64,000 nucleotides of DNA, from the NCBI GenBank assembly GCA_029204225.1, contig CM055107.1, positions 42,654,007 through 42,718,006 of the forward strand. The letters run 5' to 3'. The notes under the pieces were generated by a model. It was given only the letters and a program-made list of their open reading frames with translations, was not told the origin of the DNA and searched no databases. The translations under genes and the position numbers were made by a program. Below, one piece after another: positions 2,981 to 64,000 of the stretch (positions are counted from its first letter, which is position 1; the number at the start of each line of letters is the position of its first letter). The stretch comes from Diphasiastrum complanatum (lineage: Eukaryota; Streptophyta; Lycopodiopsida; Lycopodiales; Lycopodiaceae).

Positions 2981-7653
<4,673 letters not shown>

Positions 7654-22900: not shown

Positions 22901-23013
22901 GTCTGAAATTTTATTACAAAAACTGCTGAATTCATATTCTCATGGTAACCCCTGTCCATGAGCAGATGTATTTACAGAATATTCGCATGCTCTAATCGCC
23001 ATTGAAATATGGC

Positions 23014-24240: not shown

Positions 24241-24332
24241 GGTGACGTGCTTCTTGTGCGTATTTGGTAGCTTTGAGTTGGATCAAAATCGGTTTTCTAG
24301 AACAACTCCGGAAATTCAAGTTACTAACACCC

Positions 24333-24800
24333 TGTTATAGAAATTTCGGTTTCTTGGTGCTTGATTGTCAAATTTAGTCTTGGATTTTGTATTGTTTCTT
24401 ATAACGGGAGAACAAAAGACCTGTCCTGTAACAATATAAATACATGTGCACTACTCGTTGTAACACACTCACTCAATCAAAGACACAACAGTGAGATAAG
24501 ACAACAAGAGATGTATATTGATGAATCAGATTCAGAGTTATAAAAATTTGTTTTTTGATCAATAGTTTCTTATTGTCTAGATTGTCTTAAGTTTTCTCTT
24601 ACTTCCGCATATTATTTCCACACACATATTCAATCAAGACAAACACTGTTCTATTAGTACATAGATTAGATACAGTCCCGATTGAAGACACAGATATTAG
24701 TTTGATTTATTCAAACTTTCATCGTGTTCTCTGTGGAAGAGTGTCAAAGTATATAGATTCAAAGCTGACACAGTGATATCTGAACAAATCAGAGTCGATA
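24333..24800 (+). repeat. Putative 5' LTR of old Copia relic (copy 1)
   Basis: The segment starts TGTTATAGAAATTTC and includes a good TATA box, TATAAATA, at 24435-24442. It ends near CGATACAG|TGGTATC, where TGGTATC resembles a mutated primer-binding site. The right boundary is approximate and no 3' LTR remains. Confidence 0.5.
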
Positions 24801-24883
24801 CAGTGGTATCTTCGCGTCCCTCTCAGCATTCTTCATACATCCACCAGCAAGCCGCTATCTAGAGTGTTTCAGAAAATTAGAAG

Positions 24884-26512
24884 ATGTCGTCCATCATCAA
24901 TATTCAGGCTAAGATCACTACCATCTTGGACCCAGAAGGTTCAAACTACTTGATTTGAAAATTAAAGACTTGACTCTTATTGAAGGGCAAAGGTCTATGG
25001 CAAAGGGTAGAACCAATTGAGGAGAAGCCAGTAGCTAATCCTGGCAAAGAACTTCGAGAATGAAGTTTAAAAAATGGCAAAGCTATAGCAATTATTGCGT
25101 CTTCAGTGCATGACAATATAATGCTAGATCTTACATCAAATTTGAACGCAAAGAATTTATGGGAAGAATTGCAAACCAAGAATGAGACTCGATCTCGTAA
25201 TCAGATCGTGTTCTTGGAAGACCAATTAACTTACCTACAGTGGGACGACAAAGACCTGAACACATTCGTGTGAACGATTAAAGATCTGTTTGTTTTCTTG
25301 CAAAATCCTGGTGCAGAAAATACAATTTCTAAGGAAAAATAGCTTAGTTATTCTCTTCAAGCACTACCCAGGTCATTTCACACAACAAGAATCTTATTGG
25401 CAAAAGATGCGACAATGACACTTCAAAAGGCAATAGACGGAGTTAAGGAGGAAGTAGAAGCTCGTGAACGCTATGACGACAATGGTGATTCTGAAAATGC
25501 TCTATTTACTTAGAAGAATAAATCTTCTAAGAAGTCTAAGTTTAAGAGGGAGTCGTGTAAGAAGAATGAGTCTAAGACTAATGAACAACAATCTGGAAAA
25601 CAACAGAAGAATTCCGGTGATAAAAAGATCTGCAACAGATGCAGAAGATCAGGTCACACTGAAGAAAAGTGTTGATTAAATCCAAAGATTCGATGCATTC
25701 ATTGTCATAAGGGGGTCATGCAGCAGTAGACTGTTATCAGAATCCCAGAAACAAAAAGGAGCAGAATCGAAGCGAACCTTCAGATTCAAACTATGTCGAA
25801 GACAAAGCAGAATGCTCTAGAGCAGTAAAAGACAGGGCAACAAGGAACTCAGCAGCTTATGTTAGTGCTGATCTATGTTGTTCATCTAATTCAATTTGAG
25901 AAGTAGTACTTGATTCGGGAGCCACCTCACATTTTGTTTCCTCAAAACAAATTTTGTCTGAGTACAAGAAGATGAACTATTCAAGATTCATTATACTTGG
26001 AGACGGTTCTAAACACGTGGTTGATGGAACTGGTATATTATGGCTAGACACGAATCAAGGTGACAAGAAACTGGAGGAAGTTCTCTATGTCCCTACTCTT
26101 GATAAAGATCTTCTATCTGTAGCTAAGATAGTCGATACATGCATGTCAGTAACCTTCACGAAGAACTCTTGTAAACTGTTCGAGGAAGATTCTGAAAACC
26201 TGGTTGCTAAAGGCAACAAAGAAGGAAATTTATATCACTTGAACATTTGAGCAAGAATCACAAGTCAATCAAACTCAGGAATTGACAGATGTACTGTGGC
26301 ACAAGAGGCTATGTCACATGAACATGGAAGCCTTGTACCAAGCCAACAAAAGTCAGAGAATTCAAGGAGTTGAAATCAAAAGTAAAGATATTCGAACTAC
26401 CTGCGAATCCTGTCTTAAAGGCAAGATGACTAGAACATCTTCCAGTAAGGATGTTTGTAAAGCAACTAAGGTACTTGAAACTGTGCATTCAGATATTTGT
26501 GTATTCTTTTGA
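24884..26512 (+). pseudogene. Old Copia gag-protease relic, copy 1, with empty insertion site
   Basis: Gag starts at 24884 (MSSIINIQAKITTILDPEGS) and carries numerous stops. The zinc knuckle near 25629 reads CNRCRRSGHTEEKC, followed by TGA in copy 1 but TGG in copy 2. Protease (VLDSGATSHFVSS) lies near 25908, the GAG-pre-integrase LWHKRLCHMNMEAL near 26290 and the integrase start (VHSDIC) near 26484, where the element is cut. The sequence ATATTCGAACTACCTGCG at about 26388-26405 is the uninterrupted target into which the young Copia inserted in copy 2. The call is certain as Copia, and clearly inactive. Confidence 0.88.
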
Positions 26513-27774
26513 GGTAATCTCTGGTTGAGATTCTGAATGTGAAATAGCACTCTTTGAAAAATATTCTCTCTTAGAGGATAACCATGTTATGGGATTCTCG
26601 GTTATGAAAGTGTTGTATACAAATCAGGAGATATATGTAGAGATATGCTATGAAGTGAATCTTTGTGAGATCATTATAATCTTTGTACAAACTTCTAATC
26701 CTATGGATCTACAAAGTATTCCGTGAACTAAGTTTATTTGCATGCATAAACTAATTGTTGGTACATAGGCATATTGATGAGTATTGTGTTTAAGACAATT
26801 TCTCGCTGGGTCATAGTAATTTCTCATTAAGAATTGCTTATTAACCTAGGATTGATCTAGAATCAATTTAAATGTGGTGTTTTGGTACCACACCTAGACA
26901 TTTGAATATTTTCTAAATCCGATACAACTAATCAAGTCAGAAGCGTTACTTCTGAGTTAGTTGTGGAAAATCAACAATATAATTTTACTTATGGATATTG
27001 TTGTTAAGATGTATTGCTTATAAGTCACAACGTCTATGAGTCATTTTGGATTCGTTTAACAGATGTGTGTGCATAGAATACACAAGACTTTTTGGCCTTA
27101 TCCTTTCCCGTTTGGAATCGATAAAATGCTATCCGGAAGACTATTCTAGATTGGGACCCTTACTGGAATGACAATTTGTGCCATGACTAAAGTAAGGGCG
27201 TCTTTTGGATTACAATCCTTATATAGGTACTGTGTGTGAGTTGGAAAAGTCTGGAACTTTCTAGATGGAAAGGAATTTCAGGAACAGTTCATGTGTCTTT
27301 TAAGAATTGTAATGCACTCTCATGATGTACTCTTATGATATGGTATGGTCTCGGGAATTTGCAGAGTTGAGATTGGTGAAATCATAACTCAGATTCTACG
27401 GTATACCTAATGTATAGGAGAGAATTGTGTTCATGGTAAATTACCCCGGATGAATAGACAAGATAGTGGAATTTTGGTAATGAGAGAGCTAGTGGAATGT
27501 CCTTGGAACAGGGCATAATGGGATTATATGTACCTACTATGTCCCTTCTACCTATTCCATGTTACTTATATGTACCTACTCAAAAATGACACAAAATAGT
27601 GGCCCAAGTTCATGTATTATGTCATCTATTATGATAGATATAGCTTCTTTGGAAATCCATATTATTGTCTCTTTTACCTTTTGATCACACCCTATTGGCT
27701 AAGTGATAGATTCTTAAGCCCACATCAACAAACTTGTTCTTGTGGTCAACATATTCGAGACATCGTTGGCTATA
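26513..27774. other. No supportable gene
   Basis: Non-coding sequence shared with 58365-59634. There are no retroelement motifs and no frame longer than about 60 codons with recognisable content. Confidence 0.5.
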
Positions 27775-29194
27775 CCTAGTACACAACTGACCTCTATGAC
27801 ATAAAGCTCTAATTTAGGAGTATAAATTTAAATGACCATAACCAGGCAATGCATCATTGCTACAAACATTACATGAGGTTATTCTAATTAATCTAGTTGT
27901 AAATACTCTACAAAAGCTCTAAGCTCAGTGTTGCTTTGACGAAAATTCATGACATGATGTTTTGATGTAAGGGGATTCCAGCTAGTAAACTTCATGCTCG
28001 AGGCTCAAACCATGTTAAGGGGCTGCTGAAGAACTAGTTGAGGCATGTCTGAGAGGAGCACCTTGTTGAAAAGGTTAAGTATCCCCGGGTTTGCACCACT
28101 GAAGGAGATTATAACCTTCACCTCTTTTTGAGGGTCCAAGTTCACCATAAAGTGAACCATACCACGAGGAACCACAAAGACATCATTTGCTTGCAACGTT
28201 TGATTGAAGAGCTTGTCTTTGGAGTCTATGAAGCCTACAGTAAAAGTTCCTTGGATGACCTAGTACACAACTGACCTCTATGACATAAAGCTCTAATTTA
28301 GGAGTATAAATTTAAATGACCATAAGGTGTCCTTTATCCCAATGAAAGGAAGAAATCAAAGGCTTGCTTTTAAAAATATCGTTTATAAATGATGATGAAC
28401 ACTTATACTAAAATTGTTAAGAATGCTATTTTGCACACTATAGCTTAGTAAAAACTTGCATGATGGTCCCTATAGTGGATTAGGAAAATTCTCAATAGCA
28501 ATTTCTTGAATCAAGTATAGAATAGTATTATCAATTGAATTAAAAGTTTCAACGTTGGATCCACCTAAAATAACCAAACGTCATGTTGTCATTGTCACAT
28601 CACATAATGTGCTAAACATAACAATCAGATCGAGCTATGTTGTTATTGGAGTGAAAGCAATAAAGTCATGAAGTTGTTGACATGGTTATAGCTTTTCAAA
28701 AAAGAGGTGTTGGTATTCAAACTTATATGAGTACAAAACTACTTATTAGCTCAAACTCAAGTGGCTATGTTGTAAAACCAGGCAATGCATCATTGTTACA
28801 AACATTACATGAGCTTATTCTAATTAATCTAGTTGTAAATACTCTACAAAACAAGCTAAGTAGTAGCTCTAAGCTCAGTGTTGCTTTGACGAAAATTCAT
28901 GACATGATGTTTTGATGTAGTAAACTTCATGCTCGAGGCTCAAACCATGTTAAGGGGCTGCTGAAGAACTAGTTGAGGCATGTCTGAGAGGAGCAGCTTG
29001 CTGGAAAGGTTAACTATCCCCGGGTTTGCACTACTAAAGGAGAATATAACCTTCACCTCTTTTTGAGGGTCCAAGTTCACCATAAAGTGAACCATACCAC
29101 GAGGAACCACAAAGACATCATTTGCTTGCAACGTTTGATTGAAGAGCTTGTCTTTGGAGTCTATGAAGCCTACAGTAAGAGTTCCTTGGATGAC
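27775..29194. repeat. Tandem duplication of germin-like 3' region (unit 1: 484 bp; unit 2: 936 bp)
   Basis: CCTAGTACACAACTGACC begins at 27775 and again at 28259. Unit 1 runs through downstream sequence into the C-terminal half of a germin-like frame and stops at CCTTGGATGAC (28258). Unit 2 contains the same elements plus about 450 bp of extra sequence after GACCATAA (about 28325-28776), and leads into the complete germin-like gene. The units differ at many bases, for example CACCTTGTTGAAAAGG against CAGCTTGCTGGAAAGG, so the duplication is older than the large duplication. Copy 2 has only one unit. Confidence 0.88.
28005..28258 (-). pseudogene. Germin-like protein, C-terminal fragment
   Basis: This encodes about the last 84 residues of a germin-like protein, from VIQGTFTVGFIDSKDKLFNQ to the same C-terminus as the neighbouring full gene. 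It retains the second cupin box (VVPRGMVHFMVN). The N-terminal half, including the HxH motif and signal peptide, is absent because the tandem-duplication junction falls at 28258/28259. It differs from the full gene at several residues (for example IISFSGANPGILNLFNKVLL). It is a pseudogene and is missing from duplication copy 2. Confidence 0.85.
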
Positions 29195-29491
29195 GTAAAT
29201 CAGCTTAGAACCTCGAGGATGGAAGTGAAGAGCAAGGATCCCTCCCGGCTGGAAATACATAAGCGCATTAGAGATACCCAGCCCGTGTAATGCTGGAAAA
29301 TCCGACACAAAAGCGGTTTTTGTAGCAGTTTCTCCAGGCCCAGCAGAGAACCTTCCACGAAAACCAGTAAAAGTGAAGAAATTGCCATCCAACGGTACGC
29401 CCATACTTACAAAATCTGTTGTTAGCTCTGGATCTGAGCCTTGGACAATCATAGCTCGGACTAAAAGAGATATCAGCATTGCAAGAAACAT
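28940..29491 (-). CDS. Germin-like protein (cupin), copy 1
   Basis: A 183-residue secreted cupin. The start at 29491 gives a signal peptide (residues 1-18, MFLAMLISLLVRAMIVQG) directly before SDPELTTD, the usual mature start of germin-like proteins; an upstream in-frame ATG at 29545 would add 18 residues before it. Cupin box 1 has LHFHPRGSK with His89 and His91, but the expected Glu ligand is Lys96. Box 2 is VVPRGMVHF with His135. The mature chain has no Cys, so the N-terminal disulfide typical of true germins is absent. A glycosylation sequon NQT lies at 118-120. Germins bind Mn in the apoplast and some act as superoxide dismutase or oxalate oxidase; the Lys substitution makes metal enzyme activity doubtful. 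It lies within the tandem array above. Products of the two copies are identical; one synonymous Phe codon differs. Confidence 0.88.
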   Translation of the reverse strand: MFLAMLISLLVRAMIVQGSDPELTTDFVSMGVPLDGNFFTFTGFRGRFSAGPGETATKTAFVSDFPALHGLGISNALMYFQPGGILALHFHPRGSKLIYVIQGTLTVGFIDSKDKLFNQTLQANDVFVVPRGMVHFMVNLDPQKEVKVIFSFSSANPGIVNLSSKLLLSDMPQLVLQQPLNMV

Positions 29492-29730
29492 ATTTTTGTT
29501 GACGTATGTATATAATCCTTTGCAACTCCAATTATGTGATTCCAAAAAAACGGTATTACAAAATCAGGTTAGCATAAGAAATTGAAAACTCGAGTGTGAT
29601 ATAAAGAAAAGAGTCTACACAATGATATCAGAATGAAAAAGACCGCATTAGTGTAGTGTTTCAACAACCTCTCCTAGCTAACTAGCTATTGTGCTGTGTC
29701 TCAAGGAAGAAAGGTAGAAAGTTGGTTGCA

Positions 29731-29739
29731 GAGAGAGAG

Positions 29740-29785
<46 letters not shown>
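29731..29785. repeat. (AG)n microsatellite upstream of germin-like gene
   Basis: A 55-bp GA run with one GC interruption near 29741, about 240 bp upstream of the germin-like start codon. GAGA tracts can lie in plant promoters, but no function is shown here. Copy 2 has the counterpart at 60647-60702. Confidence 0.95.
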
Positions 29786-33306
<3,521 letters not shown>

Positions 33307-47392: not shown

Positions 47393-49000
47393 GAAGCCCA
47401 ATTTTAGAAGTTGCTAAGCTATGTATTTGATTTAGGTTAGTACGGATTTTAAGGTTGCAGGTCTTTCAATGGATTTTTCGGGCATTATTTTAGGGTTTTT
47501 GAGCTACAATAAGCCTACATTTAATTTTTTTTTAAAAACGATTTTAATGTATTTTTTAAAATATGTATAGAACACATACAGAATGGCATTCCTTACGTGC
47601 CTGTTTAGTATACTACGGAACTATTATTTATTATGAAGGGGTAAGAAAATTGAATGTCAACTAGGTTAAACTATGTTTTCATCATCATTGCATAATTAGA
47701 ATACTAAAGTCACCAACATATGAAACATTGTATTGATGTCACGTATATCTTGCCAGATATATCATTTTCAAATTGTATTGGATGAATATCCAAGACTAAA
47801 ATACATGTTTATTGAATTCTAGAACACTGATCAAGCCTTAGTTTAGATATAAATGTCTATGAGGCTGGCCTTCGATTCTAGTTTCCAAACAATGGATTTT
47901 TTTCATTAAATTACTAATGCCATAACTTTTCAATCTTTCACAATAACCCAATAGACCATTGTGTCCTTCACACAAAAAGAGTATGAGTTGAGTGACTTGG
48001 GAGCAATATTGTGTGCAAGTGTTATAGACTCGTAGTAGTCTAGGGCTCATGATGCCCTAATTTGGTGGCCTAGTTTTGCTCCACATGCTATTCAAGAGAA
48101 TTCATTTGAAGATCATGTTTTGAGTTCCTTGAATTCTAAGTTGGAGAACTTCTCGCTCTTCCCAATTGGGATTAGTTGGAGTCTACTATTTGTTAACCAT
48201 TAAACATTGTTTTGTGCCTAATGTGATGCTAAATCTATGATTAACATTCATGAGCCCATAGATTCAAAAATAGCCTGGCCTACAATCTGCATGTACATTG
48301 TAAATATTGTACATAATGATGATGCTAGTGCAATGCTGTTGCCAAAGAATTGTAAAAAAGGTCAACACAAGCAAGAACCCATAAATTAACATTGCATCAT
48401 TTGAGAATTTCTTGAAAGCTGCACATGACTCATCACAATTCCAACTAATGCTTACTTTCTTTTTGGTTGATCCGTCAATTTTTTTTCCAATAAGACATCA
48501 CTTAAGAGTTTCCTGATTATCTCACTCAAGAAGAATATAGAAATTTCCAGCAAGTACCAAAATTATCAGCTACCTTCCAGATTGAGCACTAAACACTGGT
48601 TTATATGCTGACTATGAACTTTTTCATAAACTGTGTACAAAATTCAGCTTGTAGAAAACACAAAGGCACATGCAACTTCCACATAAGACTAAGAGCAGAC
48701 TAGAAAGTGCCTTGTGAAACATGTTGTTCAAAGCCTTTCCATTTCTTTCCAAATTCCACAACAAGGGGTGGTAGAGGAGGAATGAGATTATAACAGTCAG
48801 TTGAAACAAACCCATTTGCCAGAATGCAGTAGCAAGTTTTCTGTTGCTTCAGGCACGTAATCACAATTAGCAATCAATGCTAGTATTGTCTGAAATTTTA
48901 TTACAAAAACTGCTGAATTCATATTCTCATGGTAACCCCTGTCCATGAGCAGATGTATTTACAGAATATTCGCATGCTCTAATCGCCATTGAAATATGGC

Positions 49001-49581
49001 TCAAGGAACGTCCAATAGTTTGAAGTATTTGCGATCTATAAGATAAGCGCCGATGGCAAACCGTACAGCCCATACATTCTTAGGTCTTCTGTCAATTATC
49101 CTGCAAAACAACGCTCTCCTATACATCAGAATTTCACTTCAACAGCATCATAATCTTTACTGAGATAGTTGAGAACAGCATACCTGCCTGCATCACCAGG
49201 CTTAATAAGACCCACGTTCTGGCGCATCATAGGCATCGGCTCCGCAGTTTTAAGAAGCGGAGGGGCCTCTATTATCACTATGGGGCTACCCACCTTCAGA
49301 TCCTTATCTGAAATCAGCCTCACATTCTCAGAGGATGCCTCCTCATTGGAAGACCCGGCTGCCACGGCATCTGATTCTGCTCTTACCACGCCTCGCCATG
49401 GCTGCAAAGCATGGGATTCAGCACTCCTCCCGATTGTGCATAGCCACTGGTGCTGTAGGGATACAGAGAAGAGGTGGCCATAATGGCATGGCTTGGGAGG
49501 GTGGGGCGATGAATGCCGCAGCGGAAAGATCGTAGAGGTGGGAAGAGAGAGGCAGAAAATGGAGCTGCAATAGATACTCAT
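49001..49581 (-). CDS. CRR42: CRR42-like (DUF3148) chloroplast NDH assembly factor, copy 2
   Basis: Two exons, 49581-49184 and 49100-49001, with the same 83-bp GT-AG intron as copy 1. The predicted 165-residue protein is identical to copy 1: transit-peptide-like N-terminus, then VGSPIVIIEAP, KTAEPMPMMRQNVGLIKPGD and VWAVRFAIGAYLIDRKYFK. The only coding difference I see is a synonymous Pro codon (CCG here, CCA in copy 1, near 49520). Upstream of the ATG a T run is one base shorter than in copy 1. The copy looks intact and potentially expressed; promoter features were not recognised. Confidence 0.82.
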
Positions 49582-49870
49582 GGCTGCACAATAAAACACA
49601 CGAGAGGAACAGGAAGAAATAGTGGGAATACATTTAGATTTGGCTTTGGCTTCTTTTTTTTGGGGGAGCAGGCCTCATAGTGCTTTGGCCCCAGCTCATT
49701 GTGAGCCACATGTCTTTGGCCTTGCATTGCAAAGGCAACACGAAGGCTGGAACGTTTCTTGAGGGCCCAACTAACATGCATGAGTTGGCATTCAAAAATT
49801 CCTACCAAGGGTGCATGCAAACAATGCACGATAGTTAACGCCCAAAAAGCAGAAGCCCATGACAACTAAT

Positions 49871-50226
49871 CTTGCTTTATACTTGGTGATAGATCCATCT
49901 GCATGATATTTGATCCTATACATTTGCTTTCAATAGGCTTCTTTCCAGCGCGAAGATCTACAAGCTCCTAGGTGTTGTGCTTTTTGATGGATTCCATCTC
50001 GTCCTCCATTGCTTTTTGCCAAACTTTGCTCTCCCTCACTTCTTCAAACGTAGTGGGCTCATAGAGATTTTTGATTTCCGTCATAAGAGCACAATTCACC
50101 TAGAATCTATTTGGAGGTCTTTGGTTTCTCGTAGATCTTCCGATCTCTCCTACTTGGTTTGTAGATGGAATTTCTTCGGCACCTTCTTGCACCAGCTTTT
50201 CATATCACTTTGGCACTTTATGTTGG
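49871..50226 (-). pseudogene. Copia pre-RT remnant, copy 2
   Basis: Duplicate of 23885-24240 with the same stops; it contains the same broken KVWQKAMEDEME and ELVDLRAGKKPI segments. Confidence 0.75.
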
Positions 50227-50318
50227 GGTGACGTGCTTCTTGTGCGTATTTGGTAGCTTTGAGTTGGATCAAAATCGGTTTTCTAGAACAACTCCGGAAA
50301 TTCAAGTTACTAACACCC

Positions 50319-50786
50319 TGTTATAGAAATTTCGGTTTCTTGGTGCTTGATTGTCAAATTTAGTCTTGGATTTTGTATTGTTTCTTATAACGGGAGAACA
50401 AAAGACCTGTCCTGTAACAATATAAATACATGTGCACTACTCGTTGTAACACACTCACTCAATCAAAGACACAACAGTGAGATAAGACAACAAGAGATGT
50501 ATATTGATGAATCAGATTCAGAGTTATAAAAATTTGTTTTTTGATCAATAGTTTCTTATTGTCTAGATTGTCTTAAGTTTTCTCTTACTTCCGCATATTA
50601 TTTCCACACACATATTCAATCAAGACAAACACTGTTCTATTAGTACATAGATTAGATACAGTCCCGATTGAAGACACAGATATTAGTTTGATTTATTCAA
50701 ACTTTCATCGTGTTCTCTGTGGAAGAGTGTCAAAGTATATAGATTCAAAGCTGACACAGTGATATCAGAACAAATCAGAGTCGATA
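50319..50786 (+). repeat. Putative 5' LTR of old Copia relic (copy 2)
   Basis: Duplicate of 24333-24800, with TATAAATA at 50421-50428. Confidence 0.5.
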
Positions 50787-50869
50787 CAGTGGTATCTTCG
50801 CGTCCCTCTCAGCATTCTTCATACATCCACCAGCAAGCCGCTATCTAGAGTGTTTCAGAAAATTAGAAG

Positions 50870-52383
50870 ATGTCGTCCATCATCAATATTCAGGCTAAGA
50901 TCACTACCATCTTGGACCCAGAAGGTTCAAACTACTTGATTTGAAAATTAAAGACTTGACTCTTATTGAAGGGCAAAGGTCTATGGCAAAGGGTAGAACC
51001 AATTGAGGAGAAGCCAGTAGCTAATCCTGGCAAAGAACTTTGAGAATGAAGTTTAAAAAATGGCAAAGCTATAGCAATTATTGCGTCTTCAGTGCATGAC
51101 AATATAATGCTAGATCTTACATCAAATTTGAACGCAAAGAATTTATGGGAAGAATTGCAAACCAAGAATGAGACTCGATCTCGTAATCAGATCGTGTTCT
51201 TGGAAGACCAATTAACTTACCTACAGTGGGACGACAAAGACCTGAACACATTCGTGTGAACGATTAAAGATCTGTTTGTTTTCTTGCAAAATCCTGGTGC
51301 AGAAAATACAATTTCTAAGGAAAAATAGCTTAGTTATTCTCTTCAAGCACTACCCAGGTCATTTCACACAACAAGAATCTTATTGGCAAAAGATGCGACA
51401 ATGACACTTCAAAAGGCAATAGACGGAGTTAAGGAGGAAGTAGAAGCTCGTGAACGCTATGACGACAATGGTGATTCTGAAAATGCTCTATTTACTTAGA
51501 AGAATAAATCTTCTAAGAAGTCTAAGTTTAAGAGGGAGTCGTGTAAGAAGAATGAGTCTAAGACTAATGAACAACAATCTGGAAAACAACAGAAGAATTC
51601 CGGTGATAAAAAGATCTGCAACAGATGCAGAAGATCAGGTCACACTGAAGAAAAGTGTTGGTTAAATCCAAAGATTCGATGCATTCATTGTCATAAGGGG
51701 GTCATGCAGCAGTAGACTGTTATCAGAATCCCAGAAACAAAAAGGAGCAGAATCGAAGCGAACCTTCAGATTCAAACTATGTCGAAGACAAAGCAGAATG
51801 CTCTAGAGCAGTAAAAGATAGGGCAACAAGGAACTCAGCAGCTTATGTTAGTGCTGATCTATGTTGTTCATCTAATTCAATTTGAGAAGTAGTACTTGAT
51901 TCGGGAGCCACCTCACATTTTGTTTCCTCAAAACAAATTTTGTCTGAGTACAAGAAGATGAACTATTCAAGATTCATTATACTTGGAGACGGTTCTAAAC
52001 ACGTGGTTGATGGAACTGGTATATTATGGCTAGACACGAATCAAGGTGACAAGAAACTGGAGGAAGTTCTCTATGTCCCTACTCTTGATAAAGATCTTCT
52101 ATCTGTAGCTAAGATAGTCGATACATGCATGTCAGTAACCTTCACGAAGAACTCTTGTAAACTGTTCGAGGAAGATTCTGAAAACCTGGTTGCTAAAGGC
52201 AACAAAGAAGGAAATTTATATCACCTGAACATTTGAGCAAGAATCACAAGTCAATCAAACTCAGGAATTGACAGATGTACTGTGGCACAAGAGGCTATGT
52301 CACATGAACATGGAAGCCTTGTACCAAGCCAACAAAAGTCAGAGAATTCAAGGAGTTGAAATCAAAAGTAAAGATATTCGAAC
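50870..52383 (+). pseudogene. Old Copia gag-protease relic, copy 2, left part
   Basis: Same gag (start 50870), zinc knuckle CNRCRRSGHTEEKC (near 51615, followed by Trp here rather than a stop) and protease VLDSGATSHFVSS as in copy 1, with the same older stops. It is interrupted after CGAAC (52379-52383) by the young Copia and resumes at 58250. Confidence 0.88.
52379..52383 (+). other. Target-site duplication, left (CGAAC)
   Basis: CGAAC immediately before the LTR start; the second copy is at 58245-58249. Copy 1 has a single CGAAC at the equivalent position (about 26393-26397), the empty site. Confidence 0.97.
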
Positions 52384-52667
52384 TGTGAAAAATTGTCAAC
52401 TAGTAGTATTTTCCTAACTTGAGATTTTGTAGGCCTATGGCCAAATAAAAGTTAGAGATAGGTTCATACATGTATGTAGAGGCCCAAAGTATGTGTACAC
52501 TACTTTTGAGGTCACATTAATTAGAGGAGGTCGAGTGTGGAGCTCTTCTATTGGCTCATAATTTGGTGCATTCCTATTTGACCAAATTTCTAGGTATATG
52601 GGTGAATCCTATTGGACCCCAATTTTAGCCTATCATAAGACAAGTGGCCAAGAGGCACTATGGCTGC

Positions 52668-52675
52668 TATAAATA
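52668..52675 (+). promoter_or_regulatory. LTR TATA box
   Basis: TATAAATA in a GC-flanked context (GCTGC...GCCATC), about 285 bp into the LTR, consistent with a pol II start near 52700. The 3' LTR repeats it at 57876-57883. Confidence 0.75.
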
Positions 52676-52821
52676 GCCATCTCCACGAGTATGTACACAT
52701 CTCATTTTCATTCTATTGAATGAATGTTATGCTCTTTGAAGGTCCATCTTCTTCTCTCTCACTTTTTTGTTCATATCTTGCATTCTAGCCACTAGAATTG
52801 TGATTTCTTTGTTGCTATGGC

Positions 52822-52835
52822 TTCACACGTGTGAA
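52822..52835 (+). promoter_or_regulatory. G-box palindrome TTCACACGTGTGAA
   Basis: A perfect 14-bp palindrome centred on CACGTG, the binding core of plant bHLH and bZIP factors. It lies downstream of the TATA box, likely in the transcribed leader. Related copies occur in other LTRs and leaders of this window. Confidence 0.6.
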
Positions 52836-53036
52836 ATGCAGGTTGTAGGCTCTGAAGTACGGACAGGGACAGCAAGTTTCTGTTTGTGGAAGCTTATGAT
52901 CAGATTTTGATGTTTAGTTGATGTTTAGTATGCTTAACATCACAATTTCTATCATTTTTTCAATCTAGATGTGCATAACTTCCATGGCCAAGATCTTTAT
53001 GAAACTTTAGCATCTTTTGGATCTGAGTTTTTCACA

Positions 53037-53049
53037 TGGTATCAGAGCA
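53037..53049 (+). other. Primer-binding site (tRNA-iMet)
   Basis: TGGTATCAGAGCA directly abuts the 5' LTR; it is complementary to the 3' end of plant initiator methionine tRNA, standard for Copia elements. A 596-bp untranslated leader separates it from gag. Confidence 0.93.
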
Positions 53050-53645
53050 TTAGGCGGCCAAATGTGCAGGTTTTGCCAGATTTAGAAGAGATTTGTGGGC
53101 GAGTTTGCTTTTGTAGCATTCCAATCAAGTTTCTAGCTAAAAATCTTGTTGATTTATGTGTAGAAATTGGATCTTTGTGATCAAAACATCATTTGTATGC
53201 ATTTCAATTGAAGTAGGGCGAATTCCCTCTGTACTTATCAGAATAAGGAGACAAAAATTGTTTTGGAAAGAGGGAGATGCAAGATCCAACAAGATCCTAT
53301 TAGTTTTCCATTCTAGCATATAGTTTTTTGATTCAATTTCTTGCTTCTTCATGTCAAAAACTTCAAAATTGATGTAACCCTCTGATTTTCAGTTTGCTGA
53401 ATGATTCAAGAGTGTATTTCAATCTTAGGAGTGAGGGAAAAGCAAGTATATTGAGGTTTGGTCTTGGTTTGATCAAGAAATCATAAAACTAGTGGCTAAA
53501 ATTAAGGAAAAAGTGAGGAAAAGAGAGAAAAAGTAAGGTTTTAGGTTCCAAATCTTTGTGATTTCTTCTTGTGTTTCATTTGTTGATTCAAGAGAGTGCT
53601 TAGTGCATTGGAACAGGTCAAAGATCAGAGATCAATCATTGCAAC

Positions 53646-56600
53646 ATGGCTACAAATGGAGGCTACATGTTGGAAAGCAATGATAGGCTTACCTCCCTCA
53701 ACTATTCTACTTGGAAAGTAAGGATGGAGTCTTTGCTTGAGATGAATGAGTTGATGGATATTGTTGTAGGTGTGGAGGAGAGACCTTTGGCACCTCAAGA
53801 ACAATTGAGGTATGACAAGAGGGCAAAGAAAGCCCTTCACATGATCAAGATGAATGTGACAAATGAGCTTATCAAAGAGGTTGGTAAGTGCACATCATCT
53901 AGTGAAGCTTGGGAAGCCTTGAAGAAGGTTTATGAATCCAAGTCTACTTCTAGAGTGTTGACTTTAAGAAGGCAAATCTTTTCTTGTATGCAAAAGAAGA
54001 GTGAGAATGGACATGCTTTTGTTTTGAGAGTTAAAGCATTGAATGATGAGTTAGCATGCATTAATGATGGCATAAATAATGAGGAGCTTGTTCAAGTGAT
54101 TCTCAATGGCTTGTTGGATGATCATGCTAATCTTGTTCAAAGTTATGCTATCCAAAAATGTTTACCAAGTGTTGGAGACTTGCAAGAGGTCTTGTTGGCT
54201 GAAGAATTCAGGTTGCAAGCAAGAGTGGGAGCATCTTCTACATCTCAAGGAGGAGAAGAGGAGGCAATGTTCTCTAAAGGCAAGTTCAAGGGCAAAGGTA
54301 AAAGCAATTGGTCTAAAGGGCAAGACCAAGGTGAGCACTCTACTTTTGGCAAAAAGAAGGATAGATCTAAGCTAAAATGTTTCTATTGTGGAGTCAAAGG
54401 GCATTTTGCTAGTGATTGTTTTAAGAAAAAGAGGGATCAAGGGGAAAAGCAAACCAATCTAACTATTGATGAGGGTGGGGATGAGCTTCTTTCAAATGAT
54501 GCTTTTGTTATGTCATCTTGCTTGTTGGCTAATCATGGAGACATTGATCCTTGGTGGATTGATAGTGGAGCCACTTCTCATATGACATATCATAAAGAGT
54601 ATTTTTCATCTTTAATGGCATTTGATGGTGATAGGAAGGTAATCTATACCGCAAATGATGGTGAGTGTGCAATCAAGGGGATTGGCACAATTCCTATTTC
54701 ACTTTCTACAAATAGGAATATAGAATTGAAAGATGTTTTGCTCATTCCATCCATTACCAAGAACTTACTTAGTGTAAGCCAAATGCTTGACAAAGGATTC
54801 AAAGTTGAGTTTGATGGTGATGCTTGCTTGATCAAAAAGGGGTGTAGTATCATTACAAAAGGGAAAAGGCAAGGGAAATTGTTCAAGCTTGATGCATGTG
54901 TTGTTGCTAACCAAGTTGGATGCATGGCAAATGAACAAATGTCAATTCAAGAGGTATGGCATAAAAGGATGGGACATCTCAACTACAAGGCCTTGGAGGT
55001 AATAGCCAAAAAGGAGGTAGTAAGGGGACTTCCCAAGTCTCTTACTTGCTTGAATCATGTTTGTGAAGAATGTGCTTTGTCTAAATCACATAGATTGCCA
55101 TATACTAGATCTATATCTAGATCTAAGATGCCTTTTTCTCTCTTGCATTCGGATATTCATGGTGTTACTACAATTAGCAATGGAGGTGCTAAGATGTATG
55201 TAACTTTCATTGATGATTTTAGTAGATTTTGTTGGGTTTATCTACTAAAGAGCAAGGATGAGGTGTTTGATGTGTTTGTCAAGTTCAAAGTTGCTATTGA
55301 GACTCAATTTACAACCAAAATCAAATGCTTGAGGAGCGACAATGGTGGTGAATACATTTCTAACAAATTCAAAGCCTTTTGCGATGAGCATGGGATCAAG
55401 AGGGAGTACACATGTCCAAGAACACCACAACAAAATGGAGTGGCCGAGAGGAAGAATAGAACCTTGTGTGAGAGTGCAAAGGCAATGAGATTGAATGCTA
55501 ATCTTCCTAAACCTTTTTGGAGTGATGCTTTGTTGTGTGCAAATTTCCTATGCAATAGATGGCCAAGTGTTGTATTGGAAGGAAAAACCCCTTTTGAAGC
55601 TTTGTTTGGTACGAAGCCTAATGTCAAGTTTCTAAGAACTTTTGGATGCATTTGCTACTTCAACATTACTCTTGATGATAGAACTAAGGAGGATCCATCT
55701 TCAAGAAAGGGCATTTTTGTTGGTTATAGTGAAGTAAGCAAAGCATATAGGATTTATGTTCCTTCAATCAAGAAAGTGTTCACAAGTAGGGATGTCATTT
55801 TTGATGAAGGTAACATTCCAAAAGTTGTTTCAAGTGATGATGGTGTTGTTGCAACTAATGTGCTTGATGACAATGGAGTTGATGACACATTGGATGTGGA
55901 TGTTGAAGAAGCCTCTTCAAGTCAAATTCCAAGGAGAACTCCAAGGCATAAAGTGAAACCCTCAAGGCTCACTTATGATGGCAAAGGTAAGCAAGTGGTG
56001 GATGGATCCAACTATGCTTTCCTAACTTCTTTTGATGTACCTTCATGTGTAGATGAAGCAAGGCAAGAAGAGGAATGGATCCAAGCAATGGATCTTGAGT
56101 TTGAAGCACTTATGAAGAACAACACATGGAGATTGGTGGAGCTTCCAAAGGGCAAAAGTGCAATTGGATGCAAATGGATCTTCAAGGTAAAGACAAATCA
56201 AGATGGATCTATCAACAAGTTCAAGGCAAGGTTGGTGGCTAAAGGTTATGCTCAAGAGCATGGCATTGACTATGAGGAAACCTTTGCACCCGTGGCAAAG
56301 ATGGTGAGCATAAGAGTAATCATTTCCCTTGCAACTCTTTATGGATGGGATCTTTGGCAATTAGACATTTCTAATGCTTTCTTGAATGGTGATCTTGAAG
56401 AGGAAGTCTACATGGAGCAACCCGAGAGCTATGTTTCTCATAGCAAGCCTAATCATGTGTGTTTTCTACAAAAAAGTTTGTATGGTCTTAAGCAAGCACC
56501 AAGGAGTTGGTATGCTAGGCTTAACTCTTTTCTACTTTCTCAAAACTTCACTATGAGTGAGTATGATCATTCACTTTACTTTAGAATTAGTGCTAATAAT

Positions 56601-57596
56601 GTTACAATCCTTCTAATTTATGTGGATGACATTATTTTAAGTGGAGGGAACAAGGAAGATATAGAAGATATCAAGAAAGCACTAAAAAAGGAATTTGAAG
56701 TGCATGATCTTGGTCTTTTGAGCTATATCTTAGGAATAGAAGTAATTAGAACTTCTCAAATCACTTTTATTTCACAAGAGAAGTATGCTATTTCTATTCT
56801 CAATAGATTTCATATGGTAGATGCAAATCCTATTGATACACCTATGGAATCACATGTAAAGCTAACTATAAGAGGTAATGAAAGATCCTTCGAGGACATT
56901 ACTCTCTATAGGAAGCTAATAGGTTCTCTTATATATCTAACCATCACAAGACCTGATTTATCTTATTGTGTTGGTAGATTAAGCCAATTCATGCAAGATC
57001 CTAGCATAGAACATTGGAAACTAGGAAAGAGGATCTTGAGATACATCTCGGGAACAAAAGATTTTGGCATTGTTTATAGAGGCTCATCACCTAACTTATT
57101 TGGTTTTTCAGATTCAGATTTTGCAGGAGACCTTATGGATAGAAAATCCATAAATGCACATGCTATTTTCATAGGTGATGGAGCTATCTCATGGATGTCG
57201 AAGAAACAAGCAACTATATCACTTTCTTCTAGTGAGGCCGAGTACAAAGCTTTGACATCATGCACAAAGGAGATGGTGTGGATCAAGAGGATGATTATGG
57301 AGCTTCATTTGCTGGATTTTTCAGAGAGTCCAATCATCTTTTGTGACAACCTTTCAGCCCAAAGTCTAGCAAGCAATCCGGTTTTCCATGCAAGGAGCAA
57401 ACATATCGAGGTGGCTTACCATTTTGTGAGAGAACAAGTGTTGGCAAAAGAGATCAAGCTTGAACATGTCCCATCAAAGGAATGTGTGGCTGATATCTTT
57501 ACCAAAGCATTGGGAAAGGACTTATTTTTCAAGCATAGAACAAGTCTTGGTGTACTTTCTAAATCTATGCTAAAACTAGTTGAAGAGGGAGTGTGA
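53646..57596 (+). CDS. Intact Copia gag-pol polyprotein (1316 aa)
   Basis: One frame encodes gag, protease, integrase, RT and RNase H, needed for reverse transcription and integration in a cytoplasmic particle. The start ATG follows AATCATTGCAAC and opens with MATNGGYMLESNDRLTSLNY, matching the related gag at 44166. Gag UBN2-like region covers residues about 10-200; zinc knuckle CFYCGVKGHFASDC 245-258; protease DSGATSHM 306-313; GAG-pre-integrase WHKRMGHLN from 438. The integrase catalytic triad is Asp503, Asp565 and Glu601 (35 residues between the last two). RT has Asp907 in QLDISNAFLNG and YVDD at 992-995. RNase H has Asp1156 and the SSSEAEY motif near 1196. There is no stop or shift. The TGA at 57594-57596 overlaps the 3' LTR start. 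Confidence 0.97.
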   Translation: MATNGGYMLESNDRLTSLNYSTWKVRMESLLEMNELMDIVVGVEERPLAPQEQLRYDKRAKKALHMIKMNVTNELIKEVGKCTSSSEAWEALKKVYESKSTSRVLTLRRQIFSCMQKKSENGHAFVLRVKALNDELACINDGINNEELVQVILNGLLDDHANLVQSYAIQKCLPSVGDLQEVLLAEEFRLQARVGASSTSQGGEEEAMFSKGKFKGKGKSNWSKGQDQGEHSTFGKKKDRSKLKCFYCGVKGHFASDCFKKKRDQGEKQTNLTIDEGGDELLSNDAFVMSSCLLANHGDIDPWWIDSGATSHMTYHKEYFSSLMAFDGDRKVIYTANDGECAIKGIGTIPISLSTNRNIELKDVLLIPSITKNLLSVSQMLDKGFKVEFDGDACLIKKGCSIITKGKRQGKLFKLDACVVANQVGCMANEQMSIQEVWHKRMGHLNYKALEVIAKKEVVRGLPKSLTCLNHVCEECALSKSHRLPYTRSISRSKMPFSLLHSDIHGVTTISNGGAKMYVTFIDDFSRFCWVYLLKSKDEVFDVFVKFKVAIETQFTTKIKCLRSDNGGEYISNKFKAFCDEHGIKREYTCPRTPQQNGVAERKNRTLCESAKAMRLNANLPKPFWSDALLCANFLCNRWPSVVLEGKTPFEALFGTKPNVKFLRTFGCICYFNITLDDRTKEDPSSRKGIFVGYSEVSKAYRIYVPSIKKVFTSRDVIFDEGNIPKVVSSDDGVVATNVLDDNGVDDTLDVDVEEASSSQIPRRTPRHKVKPSRLTYDGKGKQVVDGSNYAFLTSFDVPSCVDEARQEEEWIQAMDLEFEALMKNNTWRLVELPKGKSAIGCKWIFKVKTNQDGSINKFKARLVAKGYAQEHGIDYEETFAPVAKMVSIRVIISLATLYGWDLWQLDISNAFLNGDLEEEVYMEQPESYVSHSKPNHVCFLQKSLYGLKQAPRSWYARLNSFLLSQNFTMSEYDHSLYFRISANNVTILLIYVDDIILSGGNKEDIEDIKKALKKEFEVHDLGLLSYILGIEVIRTSQITFISQEKYAISILNRFHMVDANPIDTPMESHVKLTIRGNERSFEDITLYRKLIGSLIYLTITRPDLSYCVGRLSQFMQDPSIEHWKLGKRILRYISGTKDFGIVYRGSSPNLFGFSDSDFAGDLMDRKSINAHAIFIGDGAISWMSKKQATISLSSSEAEYKALTSCTKEMVWIKRMIMELHLLDFSESPIIFCDNLSAQSLASNPVFHARSKHIEVAYHFVREQVLAKEIKLEHVPSKECVADIFTKALGKDLFFKHRTSLGVLSKSMLKLVEEGV
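57582..57591 (+). other. Polypurine tract
   Basis: GAAGAGGGAG lies immediately before the 3' LTR and primes plus-strand synthesis. It is contained within the end of the gag-pol frame. Confidence 0.85.
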
Positions 57597-58244
57597 AAAA
57601 TTGTCAACTAGTAGTATTTTCCTAACTTGAGATTTTGTAGGCCTATGGCCAAATAAAAGTTAGAGATAGGTTCATACATGTATGTAGAGGCCCAAAGTAT
57701 GTGTACACTACTTTTGAGGTCACATTAATTAGAGGAGGTCGAGTGTGGAGCTCTTCTATTGGCTCATAATTTGGTGCATTCCTATTTGACCAAATTTCTA
57801 GGTATATGGGTGAATCCTATTGGACCCCAATTTTAGCCTATCATAAGACAAGTGGCCAAGAGGCACTATGGCTGCTATAAATAGCCATCTCCACGAGTAT
57901 GTACACATCTCATTTTCATTCTATTGAATGAATGTTATGCTCTTTGAAGGTCCATCTTCTTCTCTCTCACTTTTTTGTTCATATCTTGCATTCTAGCCAC
58001 TAGAATTGTGATTTCTTTGTTGCTATGGCTTCACACGTGTGAAATGCAGGTTGTAGGCTCTGAAGTACGGACAGGGACAGCAAGTTTCTGTTTGTGGAAG
58101 CTTATGATCAGATTTTGATGTTTAGTTGATGTTTAGTATGCTTAACATCACAATTTCTATCATTTTTTCAATCTAGATGTGCATAACTTCCATGGCCAAG
58201 ATCTTTATGAAACTTTAGCATCTTTTGGATCTGAGTTTTTCACA
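57592..58244 (+). repeat. 3' LTR (653 bp)
   Basis: Same length and, by reading, same sequence as 52384-53036, with TATAAATA at 57876-57883 and the palindrome at 58030-58043. It is followed by the right target duplication CGAAC (58245-58249). Confidence 0.95.
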
Positions 58245-58249
58245 CGAAC

Positions 58250-58364
58250 TACCTGCGAATCCTGTCTTAAAGGCAAGATGACTAGAACATCTTCCAGTAA
58301 GGATGTTTATAAAGCAACTAAGGTACTTGAAACTGTGCATTCAGATATTTGTGTATTCTTTTGA
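58250..58364 (+). pseudogene. Old Copia relic, copy 2, right part
   Basis: Continuation of 50870-52383 after the inserted element: TTCESCLKGKMTRTSSSKDV and VHSDIC, matching 26398-26512 with one Cys-to-Tyr change (near 58308). Confidence 0.85.
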
Positions 58365-59690
58365 GGTAATCTCTGGTTGAGATTCTGAATGTGAAATAGC
58401 ACTCTTTGAAAAATATTCTCTCTTAGAGGATAACCATGTTACGGGATTCTCGGTTATGAAAGTGTTGTATACAAATCAGGAGATATATGTAGAGATATGC
58501 TATGTAGTGAATCTTTGTGGGATCATTATAATCTTTGTACAAACTTCTAATCCTATGGATCTACAAAGTATTCCGTGAACTAAGTTTATTTGCATGCATA
58601 AACTAGTTGTTGGTACATAGGCATATTGATGAGTATTGTGTTTAAGACAATTTCTCGCTGGGTCATAGTAATTTCTCATTGAGAATTGCTTATTAACCTA
58701 GGATTGATCTAGAATCAATTTAAATGTGGTGTTTTGGTACCACACCTAGACATTTGAATATTTTCTAAATCCAATACAACTAATCAAGTCAGAAGCGTTA
58801 CTTCTGAGTTAGTTGTGGAAAATCAACAATATAATTTTACTTATGGATATTGTTGTTAAGATGTATTGCTTATAAGTCACAACGTCTATGAGTCATTTTG
58901 GATTCGTTTAACAGATGTGTGTGCATAGAATACACAAGACTTTTTGGCCTTATCCTTTCCCGTTTGGAATCGATAAAATGCTATCCGGAAGACTATTCTA
59001 GATTGGGACCCTTACTGGAATGACAATTTGTGCCATGACTAAAGTAAGGGCGTCTTTTGGATTACAATCCTTATGTAGGTACTGTGTGTGAGTTGGAAAA
59101 GTCTGGAACTTTCTAGATGGAAAGGACTTTCAGGAACAGTTCATGTGTCTTTTAAGAATTGTAATGCACTCTCATGATGTACTCTTATGATATGGTATGG
59201 TCTCGGGAATTTGCAGAGTTGAGACTGGTGAAATCATAACTCAGATTCTACGGTATACCTAATGCATAGGAGAGAATTATGTTCATGGTAAACTACCCCG
59301 GATGAATAGACAAGATAGTGGAATTTTGGTAATGAGAGAGCTAGTGGAATGTCCTTGGAACAGGGCATAATGGGATTATGTGTACCTACTATGTCCCTTC
59401 TACCTATTCCATGTTACTTATATGTAGCTACTCAAAAATGACACAAAATAGTGGCCCAAGTTCATGTATTATGTCATCTATTATGATAGATATAGCTTCT
59501 TTGGAAATCCATATTATTGTCTCTTTTACCTTTTGATCACACCCTATTGGCTAAGTGATAGATTCTTAAGCCCACATCAACAAACTTGTTCTTGTGGTCA
59601 ACATATTCGAGACATCGTTGGCTATACCTAGTACACAACTGACCTCTATGACATAAAGCTCTAATTTAGGAGTATAAATTTAAATGACCA
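58365..59690. other. No supportable gene
   Basis: Counterpart of 26513-27838, non-coding, with a handful of substitutions. Confidence 0.5.
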
Positions 59691-59856
59691 TAACCAGGCA
59701 ATGCATCATTGCTACAAACATTACATGAGGTTATTCTAATTAATCTAGTTGTAAATACTCTACAAAAGCTCTAAGCTCAGTGTTGCTTTGACGAAAATTC
59801 ATGACATGATGTTTTGATGTAAGGGGATTCCAGCTAGTAAACTTCATGCTCGAGGC

Positions 59857-60408
59857 TCAAACCATGTTAAGGGGCTGCTGAAGAACTAGTTGAGGCATGT
59901 CTGAGAGGAGCAGCTTGCTGGAAAGGTTAACTATCCCCGGGTTTGCACTACTGAAGGAGAATATAACCTTCACCTCTTTTTGAGGGTCCAAGTTCACCAT
60001 AAAGTGAACCATACCACGAGGAACCACAAAGACATCATTTGCTTGCAACGTTTGATTGAAGAGCTTGTCTTTGGAGTCTATGAAGCCTACAGTAAGAGTT
60101 CCTTGGATGACGTAAATCAGCTTAGAACCTCGAGGATGGAAGTGAAGAGCAAGGATCCCTCCCGGCTGGAAATACATAAGCGCATTAGAGATACCCAGCC
60201 CGTGTAATGCTGGAAAATCCGACACAAAAGCGGTTTTTGTAGCAGTTTCTCCAGGCCCAGCAGAGAACCTTCCACGAAAACCAGTAAAAGTGAAGAAATT
60301 GCCATCCAACGGTACGCCCATACTTACAAAATCTGTTGTTAGCTCTGGATCTGAGCCTTGGACAATCATAGCTCGGACTAAAAGAGATATCAGCATTGCA
60401 AGAAACAT
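59857..60408 (-). CDS. Germin-like protein (cupin), copy 2
   Basis: The 183-residue product is identical to copy 1: signal peptide, SDPELTTD mature start, HFHPRGSK box with Lys in place of the Glu ligand, and VVPRGMVHF box with the last metal His. One synonymous Phe codon (TTC here, TTT in copy 1, near 59953) differs. Unlike copy 1 there is no adjacent truncated germin-like fragment; its downstream sequence (59640-59850) matches that of unit 1 in copy 1, while the coding region matches unit 2, showing a recombinant origin. The alternative start at 60462 would add 18 residues before the signal peptide. Confidence 0.88.
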   Translation of the reverse strand: MFLAMLISLLVRAMIVQGSDPELTTDFVSMGVPLDGNFFTFTGFRGRFSAGPGETATKTAFVSDFPALHGLGISNALMYFQPGGILALHFHPRGSKLIYVIQGTLTVGFIDSKDKLFNQTLQANDVFVVPRGMVHFMVNLDPQKEVKVIFSFSSANPGIVNLSSKLLLSDMPQLVLQQPLNMV

Positions 60409-60646
60409 ATTTTTGTTGACGTATGTATATAATCCTTTGCAACTCCAATTATGTGATTCCAAAAAAACGGTATTACAAAATCAGGTTAGCATAAGAAATT
60501 GAAAACTCGAGTGTGATATAAAGAAAAGAGTCTACACAATGATATCAGAATGAAAAAGACCGCATTAGTGTAGTGTTTCAACAACCTCTCCTAGCTAACT
60601 AGCTATTGTGCTGTGTCTCAAGGAAGAAAGGTAGAAAGTTGGTTGC

Positions 60647-60656
60647 AGAGAGAGAG

Positions 60657-60702
<46 letters not shown>
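60647..60702. repeat. (AG)n microsatellite, copy 2
   Basis: Counterpart of 29731-29785, of almost the same length and with the same GC interruption, again upstream of the germin-like gene. Confidence 0.95.
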
Positions 60703-60704
<2 letters not shown>

Positions 60705-61046
60705 CTTGCTTGCTTGTGTATATGCATCCATGAGAAGTTACTTCGTCATAGCACATCATCCGGCCACCATCCAGTTGGCTAGGAAGAGGCACATTCTAAG
60801 TCATAGCATAGATTTTGAAACGTCTTTAATCTGCATTGCAGATTCAAAACTGCTATGTCTAATATTCGTGATCCAACAGAGGGCACTCCGAGCCGCTGGA
60901 TGTCTACAGCCGATAACCCACCTTCGCATCACGAATATGTAGTCCATTTCAATTCCCCAAGTTAGATTCTTTGTGATCTCATGGTTGGATAATGTCAAAA
61001 GGCATTTTCCTAAAGTGCAAGGATTGGCAAACCAACTAAGATTATT

Positions 61047-61101
61047 CCGATTTTGGAGAAAACTCCGTGCTTTTTTTATTCCAATTTGACTAACATCTAC
61101 C
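61047..61101. other. 55-bp segment absent from copy 1
   Basis: Copy 1 reads AAGATTATT|TCTAGGTTATGG near 30121-30139, while copy 2 has 55 extra bases between the same flanks. No target duplication or terminal repeat was seen, so a deletion in copy 1 is as likely as an insertion here. Confidence 0.9.
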
Positions 61102-63599
61102 TCTAGGTTATGGAATGGGCTAGGTCGTTAAGTCAAGTAAGCCATGAAAAGTAGTTGCGACCATATGTGGAGCCTTGTTAGGGGAAACACATGGCTAGAT
61201 ATTTTGCATATTTGTCCACCTCTCGACACAAATACCATATGTAGCTGCAAAATGGAAACTAATTATGTCAAGCATTTTGCATGTCCCAAAGATTCTCAAC
61301 ATTTTCGTGAGAACTATGGAATCCATGCTTTCTATAAAAAAAAGGTTGATGATTGGAAGCTAGAATTTGTTAGTTTGGAAATAGTTTAGGTATTTGTTTA
61401 TTCTATGAGGTATCTCTACGACGTGTTTGGGAAAACATTCATGCGGGTCTTTATCATATTATATGAATTTTTAAAAAGATACCATATTTTGAGAAAAATA
61501 AAAATATGTACAAAGTCTATGGCAAACTATTTATAAAATACCAAACTTTCAATTGCAATCTCCATGATGTCAAAGTACCAAAATTTTAAAATCCATGGGT
61601 ATCGATATATGTTGGTACCTACATAATTCATAGCATTCCCTCTCAATTTTATTATGAGGCTAATCTAGTAAAAAGGACAATATTGAGATGAGTTGGGAGC
61701 ACTCTCTTTCCTGTCCCTCTGGAGCTAGGGAGATGTCTCTCTCTTTCTCAATGTAGCTAAACTTTGTATTTTCTTAGGTTTTTTGTTCTTTCAACGTTCA
61801 GAGCTAGCCGATTTTAAACTCCAGTTTAGAAATGGCAATGCTCACTCCCTTTTATTTTTCGAATATGGGAGGATTTATTCCTCTTTCTCATTGTAGGTGA
61901 TTACTTTTAGACCTCTTTGTTCCTTCAACTTTGAAAGCTAGGCAATATTTTACACAAGTTGAAAAGTGGGCTATAAATTTTCCAATCCAAACTTATCTAA
62001 ACCATCGATTCTTTTACTTTTGAAAGATATAGATGATAAAATCGACTTTGTAACAAGTCCATGGGGAGCATACACTCAATTGTGTCACAAACCCTATGAG
62101 GAATATTTGAAAATGAAGTTATAATCTATGAGTGGTATCTATATATAGTTTGCTAAACCTTTTTGTCGAGTGATTCTTAGCACTTTTTAGAAGTTTGTTA
62201 TCTGAACAATTTGCATCATATTTTTTCACTGAGCAAGTAGCTTTTTTACAGTGGGCCATCGGTCTCATTAACACTTGCTCAATTAAAGGGTATGCGATGC
62301 TCAAACATGTAAAGTCCCCAACTTGGCAACAAGCTAGTAAATTTTTTCAAGGGACATGACATTGTTCGATTCTAACACACACTTTCTTTTTTTGTCTTTC
62401 TATATTGAAAATTTGAGTGGCCTTTCTAAAGGTTGTTACGACTAGCAAGGGTTCAAAATTTGCTACATTTGCCAAATGGCATGACTTTATTTTACGTAAA
62501 GATATCACCAATGAAATTTTCATAAGGATTGGGTCCCATGTTTTTTGTTTGCATGCCCTATAACTTGCCAAGTGGGAATTTTTTCTTGACAATTATCTAA
62601 CTATTAGTCTATGATCTATGTTGTCAATACCTAGGCAATGCACTCAAGGTTAACTCAACGTGAGAAATGGAATATTCAAATGTCATAACTCATACATCAT
62701 CTTTATCACTCCTATGCAAAACATTCTAGTCCCAAAACATGCGGACTAAAATAGATATTCTTTCAAGGATAAAAGTCTCATCCACAAAATTCAATGACTT
62801 AATTTATCTTGAAACTTTATAATCAAGAATTTTTACATGGCCTTTAATTCATTTTAGATTATATTACTATTAAGGGTTGACTATTAAATGGCAATTCCAT
62901 AATTCAATTCAAAATACTTTATAGTAGAGAGAGAAAGTACAACAAAACTTTAAATCTTAATGAGCTCAGTAGTAGTTGAGTTCAGACAATATAGTTGTGA
63001 AAAGTGGCAAAAGCTAGCTATTTATTTTTGTCGCCAAGTGTCATCATGAGGCTGGATCTCAATGATCCTCATCACATACTTTCATGATTATTAGGCTTGA
63101 TTAAGCTTAGATATTGTTGATTAGAACTCGAGCTCCATGGAGAGCCAAAATCAATGCCTAGATTTTAGGAGGTCTAGAGTGCAAATGGTGCACCTCTTAA
63201 TCTCTGCCATACATGGGGACCAATCACATTCAAGGGGTTGCATCTTGCTAGGGCAGGTCTAAACCCTAAGTTTGGCAAGAGTAGTTTATGAGTCTCAAAT
63301 TTAAGCATGTAATTTTGTGAGACTAAAAATCACATTGCGAAGAGAGTTTTTTTTTCAAGGCATCGATAGAATTCCAAGAGCTCAATACCATTCTCTCTCT
63401 ACCCAAGAGTTGAAGATTTTTCTCTCTCTAAAAAGTTTCGTAACACTTAGTATTTTCATTTGTACATCAATGCTTGATCTTATCTTATGTTCATATGCTC
63501 TTGTCTTTATTCAAAGCTTATTGGATTGCTCTTCCAAATTTGAGTTTGAGCATAGTGTACAATCATAAATGCTTGGAGATCCTTTATGATATATTTAGG

Positions 63600-63653
63600 T
63601 GTTAGAAGATTCCTATGACGATTCCTACAAATTCCTACACGAATCTTCTAACA
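63600..63653. repeat. 54-bp inverted repeat, copy 2
   Basis: Same 13-bp arms TGTTAGAAGATTC / GAATCTTCTAACA as at 32628-32681. Confidence 0.85.
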
Positions 63654-64000
63654 GATTCTAGCTACTATAATCGTACGAAGGATATTTGAAAGTGGGATCA
63701 TGGCCACAAGACTACAAAGAGCGTTGAAAAACCACCGACAAAGGAGCTCCAGAATCTAAACCTACTGGAAGTGCCAATACCAAAGAAGTCGACAAGTAGC
63801 GGATTGACCAACGAGGAAAAACAATGCCCAACGCCTCACAACCATACTTTACGGAGATGGGAATAAAAGCATGGCCGAGTCGGCAAAAATATTAGATCTA
63901 CCAGAAATATAAAGTCAGACACCCATAAAAGGTGCATTGTACTTGCAAGCCTATGGCATGAAAATTAGAGGTAGACTAGCTCTCAAATCAGCCCAAATAG

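Follow-up and report, generated by a model that had tools for sequence, protein, structure and literature searches.

Plant Ty1/copia retrotransposons are bounded by LTRs with TG...CA ends, carry a primer binding site and a polypurine tract that adjoin those LTRs, encode their proteins in the order gag, protease, integrase, reverse transcriptase and RNase H, and are flanked by a 5-bp target duplication. Insertion of one LTR retrotransposon into another has been analyzed for 1491 nested pairs in 12 plant genomes, and that report states that coding regions are not commonly targeted and that the LTRs and the integrase domain are the least hit (PMC6911290). Here we describe a Copia element from Diphasiastrum complanatum that shares all of the family features listed above. 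It lies in a stretch of 64,000 nucleotides of contig CM055107.1 (the window, to which all positions refer), for which a preliminary description had reported a young, complete Copia insertion with an empty paralogous site. That description is supported by the LTRs, the open reading frame, the CGAAC duplication and the empty site.

Anatomy and coding capacity of the element

The element and its flanking signals are as follows.

52379..52383, + strand: left target site duplication, CGAAC
52384-58244: whole Copia element, 5861 bp
52384..53036, + strand: 5' LTR, 653 bp, starting TGTGAAAAA and ending TTTTTCACA
52668: TATA-like box in the 5' LTR
53037..53048, + strand: primer binding site, TGGTATCAGAGC, abutting the 5' LTR without a gap
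53646..57596, + strand: gag-pol open reading frame of 1316 residues with its stop codon just inside the start of the 3' LTR; content Retrotran_gag_2, zinc knuckle, protease DSGA motif, Pol_BBD, gag_pre-integrs, rve, SH3-like, RVT_2 and RNase H motifs
57581..57591, + strand: polypurine tract, about TGAAGAGGGAG, running up to the 3' LTR
57592..58244, + strand: 3' LTR, 653 bp, same sequence as the 5' LTR
58245..58249, + strand: right target site duplication, CGAAC

The preliminary description had given a 5861-bp element with equal 653-bp LTRs that looked identical, and had proposed to check them by aligning 52384-53036 with 57592-58244. That alignment showed 0 differences in 653 bases. The CGAAC duplication it had reported was found at both borders, and its open frame of 1316 codons is a single plus-strand ORF. 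The LTRs have the ends TG...CA, and primer binding site, polypurine tract and target duplication are all present. The primer binding site is presumably complementary to the initiator methionine tRNA. Outside the two LTRs, neither strand of the window has any 15-base word in common with the LTR. A 5-bp target duplication would agree at random at a given place about once in 1024 cases; chance as the source of the pattern as a whole is ruled out by the two identical 653-bp LTRs together with the exact empty site described below.

Nine Pfam families matched the gag-pol ORF with E values of 0.001 or lower, and seven of them scored above Pfam's own cut-off: the copia-type gag (PF14223, E 2.8e-21), the zinc knuckle (PF00098, E 2.5e-05), the Pol beta-barrel, GAG-pre-integrase, the integrase core, the SH3-like domain and RVT_2. 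DUF4219 and rve_3 also reached E 0.001 or better, yet fell below the Pfam cut-offs. The domains stand in copia order, with integrase (rve, residues 495-594) before reverse transcriptase (RVT_2, residues 825-1068) in one polyprotein. Nine motif patterns, for zinc knuckle, protease, integrase, reverse transcriptase and RNase H, were tried and all nine matched. The catalytic motifs DSGA, HHCC, DNGGE and YVDD lie at positions 306, 439, 565 and 992 of the ORF, and those on the RNase H side, DSDFAG, SSSEAEY and CDN, at 1156, 1194 and 1233; no RNase H model is among the Pfam families listed for the ORF. A search of solved structures with the reverse transcriptase piece returned no sequence at E 0.001. 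Among viral contigs three stretches fit a pattern for relatives of this piece and none was confirmed, in a search from which records near the window's own genome were possibly excluded. As read from its sequence, the element is an autonomous-looking Ty1/copia LTR retrotransposon, for which any present activity is putative.

The duplicated segment, its empty site and the nested target

The insertion lies in one copy of a duplicated segment, and within that segment in an older Copia element.

21408..33028, + strand: duplicate copy 1, comparable part only, copy 2 being cut by the window end
47393..64000, + strand: duplicate copy 2, with the Copia element, truncated where the window ends
26393..26397, + strand: unoccupied target site at the paralogous position of copy 1, with a single CGAAC
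25900..26500, + strand: decayed older Copia relic in copy 1 (Pol beta-barrel and GAG-pre-integrase), which holds the empty site; right end approximate, placed by eye from the translation
51886..52383, + strand: copy 2 counterpart of the relic, left part, interrupted by the insertion; the segment continues from 58245

The two copies have the same orientation. At 47393 the sequence that begins at 21408 sets in again abruptly as copy 2. The offset between the copies is consistent with a head-to-tail unit of 25,985 bp; the duplication's right end lies beyond the window. The head-to-tail join (47392/47393) shows no seam, and the window contains no N characters. The bases just before 21408 do not match those before 47393, and microhomology is not evident. 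As a separate observation, a 525-bp inverted repeat pairs 46868-47392 with 39530-40054 at 97.3% identity; the inverted copy at 46868-47392 ends at, or a few bases from, the join, and each arm comprises about two tandem copies of a 137-bp unit.

Besides the Copia element, the copies differ by five 1-base indels, by 935 bases found only in copy 1 and by 55 bases found only in copy 2. The 935 bases sit at a direct-repeat pair in copy 1 (27840-28259 and 28776-29194), and their absence from copy 2 looks like a deletion between direct repeats. The direct repeats are a partial repeat of a cupin gene. The cupin ORF, presumably germin-like in both copies, is identical between them over 207 residues. 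Inspected by eye, a CRR42-like ORF agrees between the copies from a point upstream of its Pfam domain as far as the stop; a 1-base indel at 23667/49653, upstream of the CRR42-like domain, splits a longer open frame in copy 2. These genes, together with the type of the element, point to a plant source. Each duplicate also has a short reverse transcriptase match (23830-23943 and 49816-49929).

The preliminary description had copy 1 running uninterrupted through about 26393-26397 with one CGAAC, and this is what we found. When flanks of 150 bases, each including CGAAC, were compared between the copies, the left flank had 0 mismatches and the right flank 1. Neither a solo LTR nor a second CGAAC was found at the copy 1 site, and this argues against a history in which the element was once present in both units and then removed from copy 1 by gene conversion from an empty allele. 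Such a loss would also need an extra event, and we consider it very improbable, although the clustered divergence reported below is compatible with conversion tracts.

The insertion is nested inside the older Copia relic, which the preliminary description had overlooked. Relic domains flank the insertion site on both sides: the relic ORF at 25900-26247 matches Pol_BBD in Pfam (E 2.3e-16), and a GAG-pre-integrase match at 26294-26413 (E 7.4e-05) spans the empty site; in copy 2 it is accordingly the GAG-pre-integrase part that the insertion interrupts. Stops and a frame change occur in the relic, whose protein identity to the young element is 32.5% in the GAG-pre-integrase stretch and 34% in the beta-barrel part. 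Because of the stops, the frame change and the 34% identity, we take the relic to belong to another Copia family than the young element. Insertion of an element into a member of its own family ("autoinsertion") is unlikely at 32.5-34% protein identity.

Other Copia matches in the window lie at about 2-1221, 3574-6874, 10996-14174, 43606-44088 and 45769-46927; the Pfam search of the window covered 20 translations out of 103 stop-to-stop frames. ARAGORN (bacterial code) found no tRNA genes in the window, and no Rfam family reached its gathering score there. Long AG/GA dinucleotide arrays occupy 3321-3547, 29730-29785 and 33195-33304, one of them having 113.5 copies at 100% matches. At 19176-20494, where a series of minus-strand frames is open, there are tandem repeats with a unit of about 24 bases; two overlapping minus-strand frames of that region had no Pfam match.

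Divergence between the copies and the order of events

The copies differ by 52 substitutions in 10684 aligned bases, or 4.87 per kb, a value above the approximately 3 per kb of the preliminary description, which we did not recover. Transitions account for 35 of the 52. By context there were 11 CG, 5 CHG and 19 CHH transitions, together with 17 transversions. The substitutions are clustered: in five blocks drawn along the copies after looking at the data, there were 13.9, 1.6, 12.4, 0.67 and 7.2 per kb. In bins of 250, 500 and 1000 bases the variance/mean ratio was 2.2, 3.3 and 5.0, values that 1, 0 and 0 of 5000 shuffles, respectively, equalled or exceeded. The longest substitution-free stretch is not unusual when taken alone, 335 of the 5000 shuffles having one as long. 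Such clustering is more in line with gene conversion, or with haplotype differences that were already there, than with a single clock. Methylation-driven decay through CG/CHG deamination does not obviously lie behind the dense block at 26393-27600, where CHH transitions make up 9 of the 15 substitutions, context frequencies being uncontrolled in this comparison. We also observed that divergence climbs from 1.6 to 12.4 per kb (in these post hoc blocks) somewhere within 218 bases, 26239-26457, between the substitutions that bracket the insertion site.

At the mean rate about 3.2 differences would be expected between LTRs of 653 bp, and none was seen (one-sided Fisher P 0.045 against the whole copies). 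Against blocks chosen after looking at the data, the Fisher P was 0.38 for the tract left of the site (22701-26392), 0.0015 for the block to its right (26393-27600) and 0.67 for 27601-31500. Substitution rates used for dating are 7e-9 or 1.3e-8 per site per year. At these rates the LTRs would be at most 0.33 or 0.18 million years old (95% upper limit), and the duplication has a point estimate of 0.35 or 0.19 million years. The two dates are not separable with confidence. Of the relative date that the preliminary description had drawn from the LTRs, the absence of LTR differences stands, whereas the separation is weak, both overall and against the left tract. This marks a limit of short-LTR dating: 653 bp without a difference hardly resolves an insertion from a 0.5%-diverged duplication, especially if divergence is clustered.

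The order of events is most probably duplication followed by insertion, because the element is present in one copy and absent from the other. The preliminary description had drawn this order as a consequence. It remains the simplest one for a full and an empty copy, although it does not follow strictly, since the copies could have differed from the start, and the evidence comes from one site. We favor as the probable course that a Ty1/copia element integrated by the ordinary route into the relic in the second tandem unit after the duplication. The structure of the element, its target duplication, the empty site and the nested target can be read directly from the window; the route would be the one known for the family. 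An RNA copy of the element would be reverse transcribed from a primer at the primer binding site, and integrase would then cut with a 5-bp stagger and join the element to the decayed relic. The target lies in the second unit of the probable head-to-tail duplication, and the first unit keeps the empty site.

Haplotype differences are often clustered, and the spread from 0.67 to 13.9 substitutions per kb by block, together with an LTR date not clearly younger than the left tract, is also what one might see had the tandem units been born different. They could have arisen by exchange or end-joining of homologues in a heterozygote, one homologue with the element and one without, and the insertion might then be older than the duplication. 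This would require the extra assumption that the insertion was heterozygous at the moment of duplication, and gene conversion after an ordinary duplication yields the same clustering. We regard such an origin as possible but unlikely. If true, the pair would preserve both ancestral haplotypes next to each other, and the insertion could be dated against the duplication neither by the LTR clock nor by that of the duplicates.

Two haplotypes may also have been placed end to end by the assembly, in which case the duplication would be an artefact and the element a plain heterozygous insertion. Both the 4.87 per kb and the presence/absence differences could be heterozygosity, and erroneous duplication of haplotypes during assembly has been documented for vertebrate genomes (PMC9516828). 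The clustered differences between the copies leave room for this reading as well as for the preceding one. The seamless join and the lack of N characters speak against it, although an assembly-graph artefact would still be compatible with both, and we hold this explanation to be quite improbable.

Relation to known plant insertions

The insertion favored here, an ordinary integration that probably followed the duplication, is ordinary retrotransposon biology in its kind and a clean example of a known sort of event; it raises no new question about how retrotransposons work. Its value is that of a teaching case, in that an intact element, an exact empty site and the target duplication are found in one stretch. 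Among the features tested, the element shows no departure from the plant Ty1/copia family. With the nested plant LTR retrotransposons analyzed earlier (PMC6911290), it has in common a young element inside an older one. It differs from those nests, as described there, in that the uninterrupted older element survives in a nearby duplicate, and in that the site lies in the coding GAG-pre-integrase part of the older element, coding sequence not being commonly targeted there.
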